Below are positions 2,804 to 46,709 of a DNA stretch of 64,000 nt, one piece after another (position 1 is the first letter of the stretch; the number at the start of each line of letters is the position of its first letter). Origin of the DNA: Faecalibacillus intestinalis (GTDB lineage Bacteria > Bacillota_I > Bacilli_A > Erysipelotrichales > Coprobacillaceae); NCBI RefSeq assembly GCF_003024685.1, contig NZ_PYLQ01000001.1:124001-188000 (forward strand). Direction: 5' to 3'. Below the pieces are notes generated by a model that was not told the DNA's origin, ran no database searches, and saw nothing but the letters and a program-made list of their open reading frames with translations. The translations under genes and the position numbers were made by a program.

Positions 2804-3659
2804 AAATTTTTTTACATATAGCAATTGCTAGAGAATGAGGTCCAATATGACAAGAAACACTTAATGATAAAGGATCGCAAATAATATTTTCACCTGGATA
2901 AAGTTCTTCAAGTTCTTTTTTTAATTCTAAAGCGGGTGCTTCATCATAAGTGTAAGCGACACAAATATGCACGTTATGATAGTCATCATCAAAGCGTTCT
3001 TTAATATCTTTAGCGATTGCTTCTTTCATGATTTTAGTTCCTCTAGCCATTGTTCTAGTTTTAGCGAAAGAATCTAATTTTTCACCTTGTATTTGTAAAA
3101 TAGGTTTAATTTTTAACATCCCACCCAATAAAGCAGCAGCAGGGGTAATACGACCACCTTTTTTTAAATAATCAAGTGTATTAACAGTAATATAAATAGA
3201 AGCATTTAATTTATTTTCAGTTAAAATATCACAAATTTCTTGTCCTGATTTTCCTTGATCAGCTAATCTTTTAGCATCAATGACATCGTATTTTTGAGTA
3301 ACAGAAATACGTTGACTGTCTACGACAAAAACACGATTATCGTATTCTTGTGCTAGCATCATAGCTGTTTGGCACGAACCACTTAATCCACTAGACATTG
3401 GAATATGAACGATTTCATCATAATCTTTTAAAATTTGATCCCATAATTCTTTAACGTTTCCTACAACAGGTTGAGAAGTAAAGATTTCTGCACCATTTAA
3501 TTGTTTTTCAAAGAATTCTTCATGAGTTAAATTTATATCTTCATAGTATGTTTGATCATCAATAGTAAAAGGCATTGGCAAAACAAAAATACCAAGTTCT
3601 TTTGCTTCTTTTTGACGAATACCTGCATTACTATCAGTCACAACTGCGACCTTTTTCAT
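2802..3659 (-). CDS. DegV family fatty-acid-binding protein
   Basis: 285 aa, the usual size. Opens with VAVVTDSNAGI, the DegV N-terminal motif, and carries the conserved MSSGLSGSCQTA segment (around residue 90) and the KKGGRITPAAALLGG motif (around 165-180). Family members bind a single fatty acid; some act as FakB, presenting exogenous fatty acid to the kinase FakA, but which role applies here cannot be seen. Single-gene unit with GGAGTGG upstream of the ATG and its own terminator. Confidence 0.88.
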   Translation of the reverse strand: MKKVAVVTDSNAGIRQKEAKELGIFVLPMPFTIDDQTYYEDINLTHEEFFEKQLNGAEIFTSQPVVGNVKELWDQILKDYDEIVHIPMSSGLSGSCQTAMMLAQEYDNRVFVVDSQRISVTQKYDVIDAKRLADQGKSGQEICDILTENKLNASIYITVNTLDYLKKGGRITPAAALLGGMLKIKPILQIQGEKLDSFAKTRTMARGTKIMKEAIAKDIKERFDDDYHNVHICVAYTYDEAPALELKKELEELYPGENIICDPLSLSVSCHIGPHSLAIAICKKI

Positions 3660-7920: not shown

Positions 7921-8688
7921 TTACACCTTCCTTAATATATCTAATGTATGTGAGCTTGCACCTATCATATCTTGTCTTTCGCAAGTAGATAAATGATATT
8001 GCATAAAAAGTTCAAAAGTTTCATCATCCATTTTATTTAAAATAGGACGCATATAGTCTGCTGGACCATCAGCCGCGATAATTTTTATTCTTTCTAAGTT
8101 CAAATCTTGATTTAATTGATCAATTAAATCAATTCTTACATAACTATATAAATCATCAATATTTGTTTGTGTTTGAAAGTTTTGATCAATTTTTCCGTTT
8201 TTTAGAGCTTCTTTAATGTGTCCATCTCTAAAGCCATGCACTAAAACACTATAATCATTCATGACATAGGCAACTAAAATAGTCCCACCTGTTTTAGTAA
8301 CACGTTTTGCTTCAGATAATGCTTTTAATTTATCTTCATAACTAAACAAATGGTACATAGGTCCAAATAATAAAGTTATATCAAAAGTTTCATCCTTGTA
8401 TCTAGATAAATCTAAAGCAGTACCTTGATAAGCTTTAACAGTACTTTTTTTAGCTTTTAACATGCCTAAATTATATTTAACAAGTTCAATAGCATCGACT
8501 TCATAACCTTCTTGATTTAAAGCAACAGAATATCTACCAGTACCAGCACCAATATCTAAAATATGATCACCTGGTTTTAAATAATCATGAATATATTTCA
8601 TAGAGGTACGATATTCTACTTGACCATGCTTCCTTAAAAGACGTTTATCTTCACAAAATTTTCCATAGTAATTTTCTAATTCGTTCAT
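7921..8688 (-). CDS. Class I SAM-dependent methyltransferase
   Basis: 255 aa. Motif I is ILDIGAGTGRYSVAL (around residues 43-57), followed by acidic VDAIEL, the LDLSRYKDETFD segment and LLFGPMYHLF post-motif; a typical Rossmann methyltransferase. Substrate unknown (small molecule more likely than RNA/DNA, because no recognition domain is present). Ribosome site AAGGA 6 bases before the ATG. First gene of a two-gene operon with the esterase downstream. Confidence 0.85.
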   Translation of the reverse strand: MNELENYYGKFCEDKRLLRKHGQVEYRTSMKYIHDYLKPGDHILDIGAGTGRYSVALNQEGYEVDAIELVKYNLGMLKAKKSTVKAYQGTALDLSRYKDETFDITLLFGPMYHLFSYEDKLKALSEAKRVTKTGGTILVAYVMNDYSVLVHGFRDGHIKEALKNGKIDQNFQTQTNIDDLYSYVRIDLIDQLNQDLNLERIKIIAADGPADYMRPILNKMDDETFELFMQYHLSTCERQDMIGASSHTLDILRKV

Positions 8689-10716: not shown

Positions 10717-11657
10717 AAAAAGAAAAGAATAATCATGTTTGTCTGATTATTTCATTTGTATTAATGATTGTTGTAGAAATCTATTCTTTTTTGGTAAGTA
10801 ATATTTTTAATGTCTTTATTTTTACAAGTATTCTTTTTTATTTTTTGGAACAAAAAAATAAAAAGAAACAAATGAATTATTTAATACAGTGTTGTGATGC
10901 CATTATTGAACAAAAAGATTTTTCTATCATTGATGGTGAATCCAAAGAAAGTTTATTATCTAATAAATTATTTTTACTTAATAAAAGATATCATCAATCC
11001 TTAAAAGCTATCAAAAAAGAACAGCTAAAACTAAAGGATTATATCGAAGATATCTCTCATCAATTAAAAACACCAATTACTTCTATCCGTATACAAACAG
11101 AACTTTTACTTGAAGAAAATCAAAATAAAAAACTCTATGCAATAGAACATCAAATACAACGAATACAACTTTTAGTCAATGACTTACAAACCATCGCCTT
11201 ATTAGATTCTCATAATATCCAATATTGTTTTAAAGAATATGATTTACAAATGCTTATTGATGAAATAGAAGAAGATCTAGACTACCTAAATCCGCAAATT
11301 CATTTAAATAAAAATATAAAAGTATTATGTGATGAAAAATGGTTTATAGAAGCATTAGAAAATATTATTAAGAATTGTTTAGAAAAAAATTCTACATCCC
11401 TTTCTATTTTTGCTTATAAAAATGAAACAACTTTAAAAATGATGATTCAAGATCAAGGAAATGGTTTTAAGGAAAAAGATCTTCCTTTTTTATTTCAAAG
11501 ATTTTATCGTGGGGAAAATTCAAAAGGGACAGGATTAGGGCTTTATATAGCTAAAGAAATAATAGAGGCTCATCACGGTTTTATTAAAGCTTATAATCAA
11601 CAAGGTGCTTGCTTTGAAATTGTACTTCCTCAAATGAAAATGAAGAAAAAAATCTAA
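10704..11657 (+). CDS. Histidine kinase, intramembrane-sensing type
   Basis: 317 aa. Two TM helices (about 10-29 and 34-50) separated by only a few residues, so there is no real extracellular sensor; this is the architecture of BceS-like kinases that take their signal from a partner ABC transporter. HisKA: DISHQLKTPITSI (phosphoacceptor His around 119). ATPase: ENIIKNCLEK (N box), DQGNGFK (G1), FQRFYRG (F box), GTGLGLYIAK (G2). Overlaps the regulator gene by 13 bases. The downstream ABC genes support a cell-envelope stress or peptide-sensing role. Confidence 0.92.
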   Translation: MENIKKEKNNHVCLIISFVLMIVVEIYSFLVSNIFNVFIFTSILFYFLEQKNKKKQMNYLIQCCDAIIEQKDFSIIDGESKESLLSNKLFLLNKRYHQSLKAIKKEQLKLKDYIEDISHQLKTPITSIRIQTELLLEENQNKKLYAIEHQIQRIQLLVNDLQTIALLDSHNIQYCFKEYDLQMLIDEIEEDLDYLNPQIHLNKNIKVLCDEKWFIEALENIIKNCLEKNSTSLSIFAYKNETTLKMMIQDQGNGFKEKDLPFLFQRFYRGENSKGTGLGLYIAKEIIEAHHGFIKAYNQQGACFEIVLPQMKMKKKI

Positions 11658-39150: not shown

Positions 39151-39726
39151 ATGAAAAAAGATTTTGAAAATTTAAAAAAAATATTTGAACAAGCAAATGA
39201 ACAACTATTAAATCTTGATATTGATTTATTTGAATCACAAGTATCTGAACAAACAATTTGTGGAGCACTGGCTATAAGATTACATGATATATTAAAAGAT
39301 ACCCAATATTCCAAGTATTATGTTGATATTGAATATAATCGCAATAGAGGTGGAAAATTTAAAAAAATGTCTAAAAGTATACAGGGTCCAGGCGAAGAAA
39401 TAATAAGAATTAAAACAGATTTAATTGTACATAGTAGAGGCGAATGTGTAGAACGAGATAATTTACTTGCACTTGAAATGAAGAAAAGTTATCGACCTAA
39501 AAAGGAGAAGGATGCAGATAGGAGCCGATTAAAATGTTTAACTAAAGATAGCTTTAATCACGAGTGGTCTTTTGATGGAACAGAATCTCCTGAACATGTT
39601 TGTCGATATGCTATAGGTATATATTATGAGATTGATTTTGATAAAAATACTATCTCAATAGAATATTATCGTAAAGGAAAGTATCATACGAAAGATAAGA
39701 AACTCATTAAAAAAGGAACAGATTAA
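39151..39726 (+). CDS. Unknown protein with PD-(D/E)XK-like core
   Basis: 191 aa. A central segment IRIKTDLIVHSRG followed by NLLALEMKKS gives Asp90 and Glu109-x-Lys111 with strand-like hydrophobics around them, the spacing of the PD-(D/E)XK nuclease fold; a helical N-terminus precedes it. No DNA-binding domain or modification partner is adjacent. Ribosome site GGGGAG. A restriction-like or repair nuclease is an inference from the motif only. Closed by a terminator. Confidence 0.55.
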   Translation: MKKDFENLKKIFEQANEQLLNLDIDLFESQVSEQTICGALAIRLHDILKDTQYSKYYVDIEYNRNRGGKFKKMSKSIQGPGEEIIRIKTDLIVHSRGECVERDNLLALEMKKSYRPKKEKDADRSRLKCLTKDSFNHEWSFDGTESPEHVCRYAIGIYYEIDFDKNTISIEYYRKGKYHTKDKKLIKKGTD

Positions 39727-42575: not shown

Positions 42576-42645
42576 TGGAACACATCATAGAAGATATTTT
42601 AATTCCTCTTTTTTATTATTTGTGTAATATTATAATTCTATTTAG

Positions 42646-42740
42646 TTAAAGATGTTGATTTATACGGAAATATTAGCTTTTACAGGAGTAGGAATATCAA
42701 AATAAAGTAATATGCCGATATCTATAGAAAAGCAGAAGTA
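42646..42740 (+). pseudogene. Decayed copy of the sirtuin gene 5' end
   Basis: About 90 bp aligns without gaps to the start of the sirtuin gene at 43741: upstream TTAGTTAA and TTGATTTATA, then AATATTAGCTTTTACAGGAG and GGAATATCAAAA. The ATG has become ACG and a CAA codon has become TAA; similarity fades after the codons for NIPTFME. Upstream, 42556-42645 holds nothing I can identify. Confidence 0.88.
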
Positions 42741-42761
42741 GGGTTTAATGATAAAAAAGAG

Positions 42762-42885: not shown

Positions 42886-43431
42886 TTAATGTTTTTTAAT
42901 TTTCTTTTTAGCTAACCTTACCATGCTATCATCTAATGTAGTACGTGGGTTTTCTAAATTATAAGTTTTTGCCAAATCTTTGTAATGTTTATCCATGTAA
43001 TCTTTTATTTCATTAGTTGATTTTGTTTGGAATAGGGTAATTAAGTTTACATCATCTTCTATTTTAAAAATATCATTTAATTTCAAAATAAATTTAGATG
43101 TATTTTCTTCGATGTCTGAACTTTCAAAAAAGTAATTTCCTGTGTTTGTATAGATGTTTAAATCTACAAAATAATTAAAGTAAATACTAAATTTTCCAGA
43201 ATTACGGTGTGACATAAAACCTTTGAAACCATCTTTTAAAAGACCTACAGATGGATTGTAGATTCTATTAACAGGTAAAATTTTGATATTATTAATACTA
43301 CTAAACGGAATGGTAATATCTACGTTGGATTCATTTTTAATTACTAAAGCATCTTCGTTTAAAATAAGTTGTTGTACATCATCAGAAATACTTGTTACTG
43401 AAAATTGTGCTTTTATTCTTTTTTCTTCCAT
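42886..43431 (-). CDS. Hypothetical protein, 181 aa
   Basis: From the ATG at 43431 (MEEKRIKAQF), chosen because AAAAAGGAGG lies 8 bases upstream; the longer frame to 43512 has no ribosome site. Strand-rich N-terminal part (ALVIKNESNVDITIPFSSINNI resembles the first strands of a PH-like fold, a weak impression), helical C-terminus ending KKKIKKH. No TM segment or signal. Not recognised. Isolated between decayed DNA and the sirtuin gene; the 43513-43740 gap holds only a TATAAT box near 43708. Confidence 0.65.
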   Translation of the reverse strand: MEEKRIKAQFSVTSISDDVQQLILNEDALVIKNESNVDITIPFSSINNIKILPVNRIYNPSVGLLKDGFKGFMSHRNSGKFSIYFNYFVDLNIYTNTGNYFFESSDIEENTSKFILKLNDIFKIEDDVNLITLFQTKSTNEIKDYMDKHYKDLAKTYNLENPRTTLDDSMVRLAKKKIKKH

Positions 43432-43740
43432 TGCAAAAACCTCCTTTTTAAAAAATAAATTTATTACATCAAAGAACTTTAAATTATGAATAGTCATTTT
43501 ATCTTTATTCAATTATACCATATAACATGTAGAAATATTGTGATTTAATCAGCTTTTTTATTTGTTGAAATGTTTTTAATGGGTTATAATAAGCACTAAT
43601 ATCATCTATAACAGTATATATCGATTCTTTAAGTTAGATACATTCAAATATATAGAGAGATTGGTTTTAATCATTGCACTTTATAGATAACCAATAGAAA
43701 TATGTGATATAATTTCATGTAGTTAAGGGAGTTGATTTAT

Positions 43741-44295
43741 ATGAAAATATTAGCTTTTACAGGAGCAGGAATATCAAAACAAAGTAATATTCCAACATTT
43801 ATGGAAAGACCAGATGTAAGGGAAAAACTATTTAGAAGTTATGCCAATACACATCATGAAGAATATAATGAGGTTATTAAACAGCTTAAAGCCAATATGA
43901 ACGGTGCTAAACCGAATGATGCTCATATTGCTTTAGCTGAGTATCATATACCAATTATTACCATGAATATTGATGGATTGCATAAATTAGCTGGAAGTGA
44001 TGCTTTAGAATTACATGGTGGTTTACCAGAAGATGATGAAATGGATATTGCGTATTCTTTATATAATAAACCGGTACTTTATGGTGATCCAGCACCAAAT
44101 TATCAAAAGGCTTATGAAATGGTTTATAAATTACAACCAGGAGATATCTTTTTGGTAGTAGGATGTTCATTTCATACAGGAATATCTGTTGATTTAAGAG
44201 AAGTTGCAAAAGCTAGAGGAGCAAGAATTATCGAAATACAGGAAGATGCTGCTCATAATGTAAGAAAAGTATTAGAAGAATTAAAGAAAGGATGA
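43741..44295 (+). CDS. Minimal sirtuin (Sir2 family) lacking zinc cysteines
   Basis: 184 aa from the ATG at 43741 with GGGAG upstream (a TTG at 43732 is less likely). Sirtuin motifs: AFTGAGIS at residues 5-12, SNIPTF, TMNIDGLH (75-81; usual TQNIDGLH), catalytic His92 in LHGG, and VVGCSFHTG near 140. Canonical sirtuins have about 240 aa and a Cys4 zinc ribbon after the catalytic His; here the chain goes straight to LYNKPVLYGDP and the only Cys is residue 142. It could be an NAD-consuming deacylase, an ADP-ribosyl-handling enzyme or an NADase; which one is unknown. Confidence 0.85.
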   Translation: MKILAFTGAGISKQSNIPTFMERPDVREKLFRSYANTHHEEYNEVIKQLKANMNGAKPNDAHIALAEYHIPIITMNIDGLHKLAGSDALELHGGLPEDDEMDIAYSLYNKPVLYGDPAPNYQKAYEMVYKLQPGDIFLVVGCSFHTGISVDLREVAKARGARIIEIQEDAAHNVRKVLEELKKG

Positions 44296-44300
44296 TTTAA

Positions 44301-44396
44301 ATAGAATTATTTCAAGGTGATAATACAATTATAAATCAACCTAAAATTATTACGGATGGTTATTATAAAGATTTTGGCAATTTGTTTACTGATTAG
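44301..44396 (+). pseudogene. DUF3990 N-terminal remnant
   Basis: 31 codons then TAG: IELFQGDNTIINQPKI...DGYYKDFGNLF. This follows the DUF3990 N-terminus (LYHGSN-x3-EKPKI...DFG-GFY), with HG now QG and the frame closed before the GFYTT motif. The rest of the gap to 44612 has only a 46-codon frame (44471-44611) without a ribosome site. DUF3990 proteins belong with ADP-ribosyltransferase-like domains. Confidence 0.65.
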
Positions 44397-44612
44397 CTAT
44401 ATTGTATTTTATATTGGAGAAATCATATATATTTAGATACTATATAAAATAGTTTACATATATCAAACAAATGTTGGAAAGAAATGTTAATAAATATCTT
44501 ATAATTATCACAGGTATTAATGAAAAACCAAGTGGTTTTCTCAATCGTATTGTAAAAATACAAAAATTAATTTATTTTTATATGGAGTGTAAAAAGGTAA
44601 AAGGAGAGTAAT

Positions 44613-45596
44613 ATGTCAGTTGAGAGAATAGGCGTTTCATCGGTAGAAAAAATTATAAATCAAATGGGAATGATTTTTAGAGAGCAGCCTGTGGATGATT
44701 ATGGAATTGATGCGCAAATTGAAATTGTTGAAAATAAATGTGCTACCGGAAAATTAATTGCTGTTCAGATTAAATCGGGTAACAGTTATTTTAAGGAATT
44801 AACACCAAATAGTATAATATATAGAGGAAAACGAAAACATTATGATTATTGGTTGAATCATTCTTTACCGGTGATAATCGTTTTGTATGATCCAGAAAAA
44901 GATAAATGTTATTGGAATATAGTTAACAAAGAAACAGCAATTTTATCTGAACAAAATTGGAAGATTGAAATTTCTTTTTCTAATCTTTTAGAAAACTCTA
45001 AATCATCTTTGATTAAAATTGCAGACAGATTAACAGAGTATGAAAAAAAGTTCAATACTTTTTTATTTGCAAAGCCATGGATGAAACAAATTATTTATGG
45101 AAATAGAATTGTTTTAAATGTTGAAGAATGGATAAATAAATCATCCGGTAGAGGTACTTTTAAGCTGAAAATAATTGATAAAAATGGTAATGATAGGCAG
45201 GTTGTTAATAGTACATTTATTGGGTTTGGAACAAAGCCGTATAATCAAATTTTTCAAGAATTATTTCCATGGGCATTTATTACTATAGATTACAATTATT
45301 ATAAAGATTATGATAGCATAGCAATGCGTGATAATGATTATGAAGCAGCTGAATATACTTATTTTGATTCTGTTGGTGCGGTATTTGATATGAGTGAATT
45401 TAAATATATTGTTCCCAAAGACGCACTACCAATAAAAAAATGGATGTGTGATCCTTGTAATATAAGACCGTACAGCATAGGTGGAGGGGAAGTAGCGTTC
45501 TATCAATTAATATTAGAATTAAATGATGTTGCAAAAGCATTTTTAATTTTAGATGATTTCATTAATGAGACAAATTTTTATACATTATTAAGTTAG
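44613..45596 (+). CDS. DUF4365 protein (PD-(D/E)XK nuclease-like)
   Basis: 327 aa. The N-terminal 150 residues match DUF4365: REQPVDDYGIDAQIEIVE, TGKLIAVQIKSGNSYF, YWLNHSLPVIIVLYDP and CYWNIVN. Asp33, Glu37 and Gln52-x-Lys54 form the nuclease-like site of this family. The C-terminal 170 aa is not recognised. DUF4365 proteins occur in defence islands and in restriction-like contexts. AAAGGAGAG ribosome site. Alone in its unit; the gap that follows (45597-45881) is AT-rich and empty. Confidence 0.82.
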   Translation: MSVERIGVSSVEKIINQMGMIFREQPVDDYGIDAQIEIVENKCATGKLIAVQIKSGNSYFKELTPNSIIYRGKRKHYDYWLNHSLPVIIVLYDPEKDKCYWNIVNKETAILSEQNWKIEISFSNLLENSKSSLIKIADRLTEYEKKFNTFLFAKPWMKQIIYGNRIVLNVEEWINKSSGRGTFKLKIIDKNGNDRQVVNSTFIGFGTKPYNQIFQELFPWAFITIDYNYYKDYDSIAMRDNDYEAAEYTYFDSVGAVFDMSEFKYIVPKDALPIKKWMCDPCNIRPYSIGGGEVAFYQLILELNDVAKAFLILDDFINETNFYTLLS

Positions 45597-45881
45597 ATAA
45601 AAAATATTATAGTGAAGAATTTTTTGAAATTATAATAAATATTTAACATGATTAATAATGTAACATATTCTTAAAAAGTATGAGATAAATAAAATAACAT
45701 TGATAAAGTATTAAGTGATTAACCGAAGAATAAACAATTGTTTATAAATTTTTTTTGATTTAAAAAATTACTAAATCTAAATAAGTAGGAATTGTAAAAT
45801 GTATAAATGAAGTATTTATATTGTGAAAAATTGGATGATATAAATATTTTTTAATTAAATGAGAAGAGGAGATTAAAGCAA

Positions 45882-46670
45882 ATGGAGACACATATTCATA
45901 ATCCGTATAAAGTAAATTGGAAAATGTACGGGCTTATAGGTGTGATATCAATTTTAGTAATGATTTTTGCTTCTTTTTGTTGCCCTAATGCACAAAATGT
46001 ACAAAGTATTATTTTTGATATAATTAGAAATTTATCTTACGGAGGTGTTGCATCTGTTTTTATTGCTTTATTAATTGAAATAGGAAATGTCAAAGAGAAA
46101 AATAATAAAGCTAATAATTTGTATGAAATGATTTATAGTGATTTAAAAATTAATATTTTGTGGTATTTGAATGGTTGGGCACAATTTTGTAATATAGTAT
46201 ACAAAGATAAAGAATACAAAGATGAAAAACATACTTGGACTGAATGGTATGGCATTGTTAAAAATCGTTTTATAGAATTAGATGACAAAAGACAAGAACA
46301 AGCACTAGAATTCTTTAAAGATGAATTAATATATAATTTAGATGTAATAGAAAAATCTATAGATTATATAAATAAACAACAATTTATTTTGAGTATTAAT
46401 GAATTATACGATGAAAATTTAAAATCAATTATTGAGAATTTTAAATTTGAATGTTATGGTGCAAAGTCATTTTTAAAAATAAATTTTAATAGTGAAAAAT
46501 TTTGGAAATCATTTGATGCAATAAATGAGGATTTAAAAAAATATATATGTAGTTGGACGGATATACAATATTATAATTATTATAAATTTAAACCTTTTGA
46601 TATTTTAACTAATAAAAGTGATATTAGAACCGCAATTATCGAGAGTAAAAAACATAATAAATTAAAGTAA
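45882..46670 (+). CDS. Two-TM membrane protein with cytoplasmic domain, unknown
   Basis: 262 aa. TM helices at about 14-34 and 49-68 with a short outside loop, then about 190 aa of charged, helix-rich cytoplasmic sequence (RQEQALEFFKDELIYNLDVIEKSIDYI). No enzyme motif. GAGGAG ribosome site. Two-TM proteins of this shape are common as membrane effectors or sensors in defence loci, but nothing here proves it. Downstream gene 40 bp away. Confidence 0.65.
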   Translation: METHIHNPYKVNWKMYGLIGVISILVMIFASFCCPNAQNVQSIIFDIIRNLSYGGVASVFIALLIEIGNVKEKNNKANNLYEMIYSDLKINILWYLNGWAQFCNIVYKDKEYKDEKHTWTEWYGIVKNRFIELDDKRQEQALEFFKDELIYNLDVIEKSIDYINKQQFILSINELYDENLKSIIENFKFECYGAKSFLKINFNSEKFWKSFDAINEDLKKYICSWTDIQYYNYYKFKPFDILTNKSDIRTAIIESKKHNKLK

Positions 46671-46709
46671 TTTTATTACACGAATTGTTTTAGAAAGGAA
46701 GATTAATTA

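Follow-up and report, generated by a model that had tools for sequence, protein, structure and literature searches.

The window, a stretch of 64,000 nucleotides from Faecalibacillus intestinalis, encodes on its plus strand (43741..44295) a short sirtuin of 184 aa that family matches, alignments, tree and model characterize as zinc-free. The gene runs from an ATG at 43741 to a stop codon ending at 44295; the start in the ORF list lies one TTG upstream, at 43732. A probable promoter and ribosome-binding site (GGGAG) occupy 43684..43740 of the same strand, with a -10-like TATAAT ending at 43713; the promoter scan is weak (18 promoter-like sites vs 17.2 expected). The protein matches the Pfam SIR2 profile (PF02146) with 37.1 bits against a curated cut-off of 24 (E 4.1e-9), the alignment covering only profile positions 1-105 of 180. 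It further matches the NCBIfam subfamily PRK00481 (E 8.7e-23) and, in a phmmer search of the PDB, an archaeal Sir2 (E 3.8e-14), and falls far below the cut-off of the NCBIfam deacylase models (best 80.6 bits vs 243). These SIR2 matches are far above chance, and the 184-aa sirtuin proposed here by a sequence-only reading is real. The genome of the window has no second PF02146 match, the Pfam matches of the protein at E<=0.1 do not include SIR2_2, and no PADLOC family matches it at E<=0.01. Its nearest relative is a Faecalibacillus faecis protein with 99% identity over 181 residues.

The motifs that can be read directly in the protein are: GAGIS (residues 8-12); TMNIDGLH (residues 74-81; 43960..43983, plus strand), in which TMN replaces the usual TQN, as is also evident in the alignment; and the catalytic His92 (codon 44014..44016, plus strand). 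Hence, the retention of GAGIS, NIDGLH and the catalytic histidine claimed by the sequence-only reading stands. At the position of the zinc ribbon of its relatives the alignment places an 18-residue linker, GLPEDDEMDIAYSLYNKP (residues 94-111; 44020..44073, plus strand). The 184 residues include no CxxC pair, and the single cysteine, Cys142, lies within the sequence GCS.

A search of GTDB genomes with the window sirtuin recovered 51 loci (in the labels of this analysis L-numbers denote loci, G-numbers genomes, g-numbers genera and f14 a family). A first alignment held the window and 37 loci as zinc-free rows and 12 loci (L040-L051) with two CxxC pairs, with no row for L031. The alignment used below, A1, has 61 rows: 50 zinc-free ones (the window, 30 of the 38 zinc-free GTDB loci, L144, L145 and 17 copies from the order's second family) and 11 zinc-bearing ones, the order's second family and family f14 having been added to the GTDB loci. 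It omits L003, L010, L016, L017, L031, L033, L038 and L039 as near-copies or partial, L129, L137, L140 and L141 as near-copies, and, among the 12 zinc-bearing loci, L051 for an ambiguous residue; L052 is a fragment. The distance from the catalytic His-Gly to the VLYG strand is 18 residues in all 50 zinc-free rows and 36 residues, with the Cys4, in all 11 zinc-bearing ones. The Cys4 is absent throughout the zinc-free rows, 12 of which have no cysteine whatever. This agrees with the earlier claim that the ribbon is absent: there is no CxxC, and the 18-residue linker stands in place of the 36-residue Cys4 stretch. The accompanying claim of a single cysteine holds for the window protein and fails for the clade, whose members have 0 to 4. 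A substitute zinc site was also considered. No cysteine is conserved, and the only invariant histidines in A1 (62, 81 and 92) are all common to the zinc-bearing relatives; hence, there is no conserved substitute Cys/His site, and the possibility that other residues preserve one can be set aside.

The conserved core of these proteins is otherwise that of a sirtuin: His92 is invariant in 61/61 rows, and Asp78, Phe20 and the GAGIS loop are likewise unchanged, and Asn76 almost unchanged, even in rows of only 43% identity. Arg27 is invariant in 61/61 rows, and every row has both the acceptor-side VLYG strand and His92. The canonical DFR motif has become TFM, its Arg being missing in the zinc-free and the zinc-bearing compact groups alike, and the cofactor loop is shortened relative to canonical sirtuins. 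The nearest zinc-bearing relatives are the compact sirtuins of about 200 aa from Lutispora, Caloramator and other Clostridia (L040-L051; approximately 43-48% identity), which share TMNIDGLHK, the missing DFR Arg, Arg27 and the short cofactor loop and differ in keeping the Cys4 ribbon with its 36-residue linker. As TMN, the loss of the DFR Arg and the short cofactor loop are common to both compact groups, they arose before the loss of zinc. The replacement of TQN by TMN pointed out in the sequence-only reading is thus present, and is clade-wide and older than the zinc loss.

Two trees were computed: the first from the A1 rows and 8 canonical sirtuins of the window's family; the second with 11 further zinc-free rows removed as near-copies and two phage rows added, its bootstrap being unsettled. 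The 50 zinc-free rows are monophyletic (100/100), a grouping that held in the second tree, and in the first tree the zinc-free and zinc-bearing compact sirtuins are united against the canonical ones (100/100). The exact place of the zinc-free clade among the compact sirtuins is less firm (80/83 with L042). Within the close family the dN/dS against the window gene is 0.03-0.12; judging from these ratios, strong purifying selection acts on the clade. A pseudogene or deletion artefact is excluded by these dN/dS values, by the monophyly of the 50 rows and by their fixed 18-residue linker: this is a real, derived, zinc-free minimal sirtuin lineage of single origin. Some genomes of genus g42 have two zinc-free sirtuins (L086, L128, L129; L126 and L127 in G120), the second copy being a divergent paralogue with 47-51% identity to that of the window and in tandem in L086, L128 and L129. 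The search for plasmid carriage of the short sirtuin returned one distant match only. We found no paper describing this clade in the PMC open library, a search that subscription journals mostly lie outside.

The AlphaFold2 model built from A1 (pLDDT 91.0, pTM 0.86) predicts a short helix (98-106) where the relatives have the ribbon; in the zinc-bearing Lutispora relative, modelled in the same way (pLDDT 93.8), this position is occupied by strands 93-100, 106-108 and 124-129. The Rossmann fold with the GAG NAD motif and the catalytic histidine is present in both alignment and model. Structure prediction and fold search had been proposed as a check on the sequence-only reading, and canonical deacylases came out on top: they are first in Foldseek, with 4bv2 best by E, and the closest match by Z in VIA-align is E. 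coli CobB (1s5p; Z 21.1, 1.9 A, 178/184 residues), a fold likeness that is in itself no proof of function. All of the best 50 structural entries listed belong to the canonical sirtuin type. The best 50 VIA-align rows listed include no chain of ThsA or FAM118, though absence from this list excludes nothing. In a search of PDB sequences with the A1 profile, archaeal Sir2, Sir2Tm, CobB and SIRT5 rank high. The short form shares with E. coli CobB and the canonical deacylases (PF02146, PRK00481) the Rossmann NAD site, GAGIS, NID, the catalytic histidine and the VLYG strand. It differs from the CobB type, which has the Cys4 ribbon, DFR and TQN, in lacking the Cys4, in having TFM and TMN and in its shorter cofactor loop. 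The open frames of the canonical sirtuins of the window's family are 246-277 aa, as against 184 aa for the short form.

The short form occurs instead of, and never beside, the canonical full-length sirtuin. The window's family is represented by 43 genomes: the short form is present in 30, a full-length sirtuin (E<1e-50) in 10 and both together in none. The three without either are G006 (69% complete), G009 and G032, the last with other SIR2 proteins only. In the order (294 genomes) the short form is present in 48 genomes at E<=1e-20, and a full-length SIR2 at E<1e-30 is missing from all 48. Of the remaining 246 genomes, 188 have a full-length SIR2 (below 1e-35), a count obtained from the 239 genomes with a match by subtracting the 48 and also G032, G224 and G292, in which the best match is weaker. 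Outside the order, 12 genomes have the zinc-free form: four Psittacicella (Pseudomonadota), Anaerofustis, Anaeromassilibacillus, an Oscillospiraceae, family f14 and others. None of these has a full-length sirtuin either, which makes 0/60 overall, counts that are inflated by shared ancestry since species are non-independent samples. The genera g1, g44 and g58 are each mixed, with species that have the short form, species that have the canonical one and none that has both. For the compact zinc-bearing form the exclusivity is weaker, with 3/11 genomes also having a canonical sirtuin. Three genomes (G012, G027, G035) contain an additional tandem of SIR2 proteins resembling SirTM and G636 an additional weak 291-aa SIR2-like protein; the exclusivity therefore holds against the full-length CobB type only. 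Such mutually exclusive occurrence would be expected if a functional equivalent had displaced CobB. It indicates that the short form does the same job as CobB, whose genomic role it apparently has. The identity to the window sirtuin reaches 85% in G222 and 78% in G121, vs 47-63% for the other rows of their family, 86% in L018 and 65-75% in Psittacicella. These identities together with the tree point to several horizontal gains of the short sirtuin, independent acquisitions being judged from taxonomy and tree.

There is no conserved operon partner, as no neighbour family recurs in more than 9 of the 51 loci. At five loci the sirtuin adjoins a Septu PtuA/PtuB pair (in L014 with PADLOC E-values of 2.9e-127 and 1.1e-70). 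In G027 the host sirtuin gene is interrupted near codon 19-20 by an integrative element whose recombinase is of the large serine type. At the left junction (L083 ~3043, within ~2983-3060) the host codons are followed by GTGGATACACAATAAGGC; at the right junctions (L021 8469 and 10837) GCCTTATTNTGTATCCAC is followed by the remainder of the sirtuin gene. The 17-mer CCTTATTGTGTATCCAC occurs at all three junctions, in inverted orientation at the left one and in direct orientation at the two on the right; the copies at the left and at 8469 are perfect, whereas that at 10837 has one mismatch. A scan for it that allowed up to 4 mismatches with TATCCAC obligatory, and left aside the near-duplicate loci L053-L082, otherwise matched a similar right junction in L014/L084 (4 mismatches) and three unrelated sites (3 or 4). 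Between the G027 junctions lie: a relaxase-like gene (identified by eye); the large serine recombinase; a complete sirtuin; and defence genes (Septu, PDC-M38). The G027 recombinase copy is broken by 3 stops, and its intact L012 homologue has the Pfam domains Resolvase, Recombinase and DUF4368. In L014 an intact sirtuin precedes PtuA, PtuB and a GNAT-like gene, behind which lies the former 3' part of the sirtuin gene. This 3' part shares 96% identity with the intact L007 gene, and the upstream flanks match. From these two arrangements we conclude that gene-breaking elements bring another copy of the sirtuin, and that the interrupting element should bring a complete copy suggests that the sirtuin's function is important to the host. 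Close homologues of the recombinase (E<1e-100) are present in only 4/43 genomes of the family, so that one element type does not account for all remnants. Partial sirtuin copies were rejected as proof of an integration hot spot: they occur at 6/39 loci vs 22/285 for the other genes of the same loci, no clear excess, many matches among the 285 being ordinary paralogues. The case for integration is thus made by the G027 junction sequences and not by the partial-copy count.

The window has its own remnant (42589..42743, plus strand), in which the sirtuin promoter and the first ~27 codons recur in decayed form, with internal stops. The stretch 42631-42743 is 83% identical to 43708-43821 and 78% identical to the corresponding stretch of F. 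faecis. This remnant is separated from the intact gene, which begins about 1 kb downstream, by a minus-strand ORF (42886-43437) with no Pfam match. As a left junction of a G027-type element the fragment was considered and rejected: the match reaches approximately codon 27, past the attachment core at codon 19-20, and this reading is therefore unsupported. The upstream flank of the window sirtuin has 98% DNA identity to F. faecis, and 44298-46673 is an insert relative to that species. In F. faecis (L002 6906-6938) a remnant of about 33 bases of the 3' end of a second sirtuin adjoins a DUF1284-like gene. The junction sequence of the element is absent from the remnants in both the window and F. 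faecis; these remnants testify to repeated rearrangement. Two candidate defence genes lie on either side of the window sirtuin: a DUF4365 protein at 44613-45596, with PADLOC matches to PDC-M02A and to an Aga_REase fusion model, and a protein at 39151-39726 with a PD-Lambda-3_A match.

We consider it probable, well short of certainty, that the window gene encodes a zinc-free, CobB-derived NAD-dependent protein lysine deacylase, which is the cell's only CobB-type sirtuin and took over from the canonical enzyme, in part through horizontal transfer. A CobB-type ancestor would have lost its zinc ribbon, the 36-residue Cys4 hairpin giving way to the 18-residue linker with a short helix that may have assumed the structural role of the ribbon, while the Rossmann NAD site and the catalytic histidine would have been retained. 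With NAD bound at GAGIS/NID, His92 would drive the oxygen of the acyl-lysine to attack the nicotinamide ribose, and the acyl moiety would be released as O-acyl-ADP-ribose; we infer both this chemistry and its substrates. On the wider proposition, that true zinc-free deacylases of about 180 residues have repeatedly replaced CobB in two phyla, that the ribbon is dispensable and that gene-breaking elements bring the intact replacement, our judgement is evenly divided. Two changed canonical active-site positions (DFR to TFM, TQN to TMN) count against a deacylase, as do the low scores with the NCBIfam deacylase models. The strongest argument against it comes from PMC12700824, which states that canonical sirtuins require the zinc module for deacetylation and that the zinc-free SIR2_2 proteins do not have it. 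There the module is connected with the change from NADase to deacetylase activity, and it is taken to set deacylases apart from the NAD-processing SIR2_2 proteins. The present clade shed the module from within the canonical lineage, retained the catalytic residues and stands in the place of CobB, and so offers a direct test of this requirement: either deacylation needs no zinc, or a deacylase went back to NAD chemistry. With only 184 aa the protein could also serve as a compact scaffold in studies of structure and function.

The sequence-only reading had raised NAD hydrolysis and ADP-ribosyl chemistry as possible changed activities. Either activity appears less likely in view of the CobB-like modelled fold, the catalytic histidine in 50/50 zinc-free rows, the CobB-exclusive occurrence and the lack of a PADLOC match or a widespread neighbour. 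An NAD hydrolase or NAD-cleaving signalling enzyme would be one in which, with the ribbon that helps to hold the peptide gone, water becomes the main acceptor, as in SIR2_2/ThsA/FAM118. The lost module and the altered TQN and DFR positions would fit this, and zinc-free proteins of the SIR2_2/ThsA/FAM118 type, which lack the module as the short form does, are characterized in PMC12700824 as likely ancestral, multimeric and NAD-processing. In the short form, however, the zinc loss is derived and the modelled fold is nearest to CobB, SIR2_2 and PADLOC matches are missing at the thresholds given above, and the acceptor-side VLYG motif is kept with His92 in every row. Moreover, it stands in the place of CobB, and a constantly present free NADase would presumably cost the cell, so that we regard this activity as unlikely. 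Catalytic death, leaving an NAD-binding sensor or scaffold, would also accommodate the active-site changes and the loss of the module; it is highly improbable given that, down to 43% identity, no row alters His92, Asp78, Phe20 or the GAGIS loop and Asn76 hardly varies.

A role within an anti-phage defence operon (sirtuin-PtuA-PtuB) is suggested by the five loci with a Septu pair, by further copies adjoining a PDC-M38 pair in L021 and by the DUF4365 defence-type gene downstream in the window. At the remaining loci, however, the sirtuin is solitary or has unrelated neighbours, it is widespread in the close family (30/43 genomes), and integration into the gene accounts for the cargo; we hold such a role to be quite improbable. 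An ADP-ribosyltransferase acting with a partner protein in the manner of SirTM is very improbable. SirTM, like the short form, is bacterial and has the SIR2 fold, but it has Gln at the catalytic histidine position and a macrodomain partner. The short form keeps His92 (50/50 zinc-free rows) and shows no recurrent partner: in the count of neighbour families none exceeds 9/51 loci, so that no fixed partner or reversing hydrolase is evident next to it. Genus g8 has separate tandem SIR2 genes (L120, L121, L097, L099, L100) with Gln or Glu at the catalytic histidine position, which, by this motif, we take to resemble SirTM. In favour of such a transferase are the changed active-site positions and the chemistry being within reach of the SIR2 class, SirTM itself being described as ADP-ribosylating in PMC4518038.

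PMC11820453 reports claims, based on AlphaFold3, that zinc sites are missing from some sirtuins of acetic acid bacteria (about 351 aa). On two phage-classified IMG/VR contigs (L188 1239-1829; L189 4998-5588) a zinc-free sirtuin of 196 aa with a 7-residue linker adjoins a coaD-like gene, and L189 is sister to the bacterial zinc-free clade (100/98) in the second tree, the bootstrap of which is unsettled. The sirtuins of the vequintavirus rV5 (L190 1495-2256) and of LR756500, a 462-kb uncultured phage (L191 ~1500-2013), are distant (31-33% identity; approximately 230-254 aa): they also have no Cys4 ribbon, the zinc cysteines being absent, and their ribbon region keeps some of its length.
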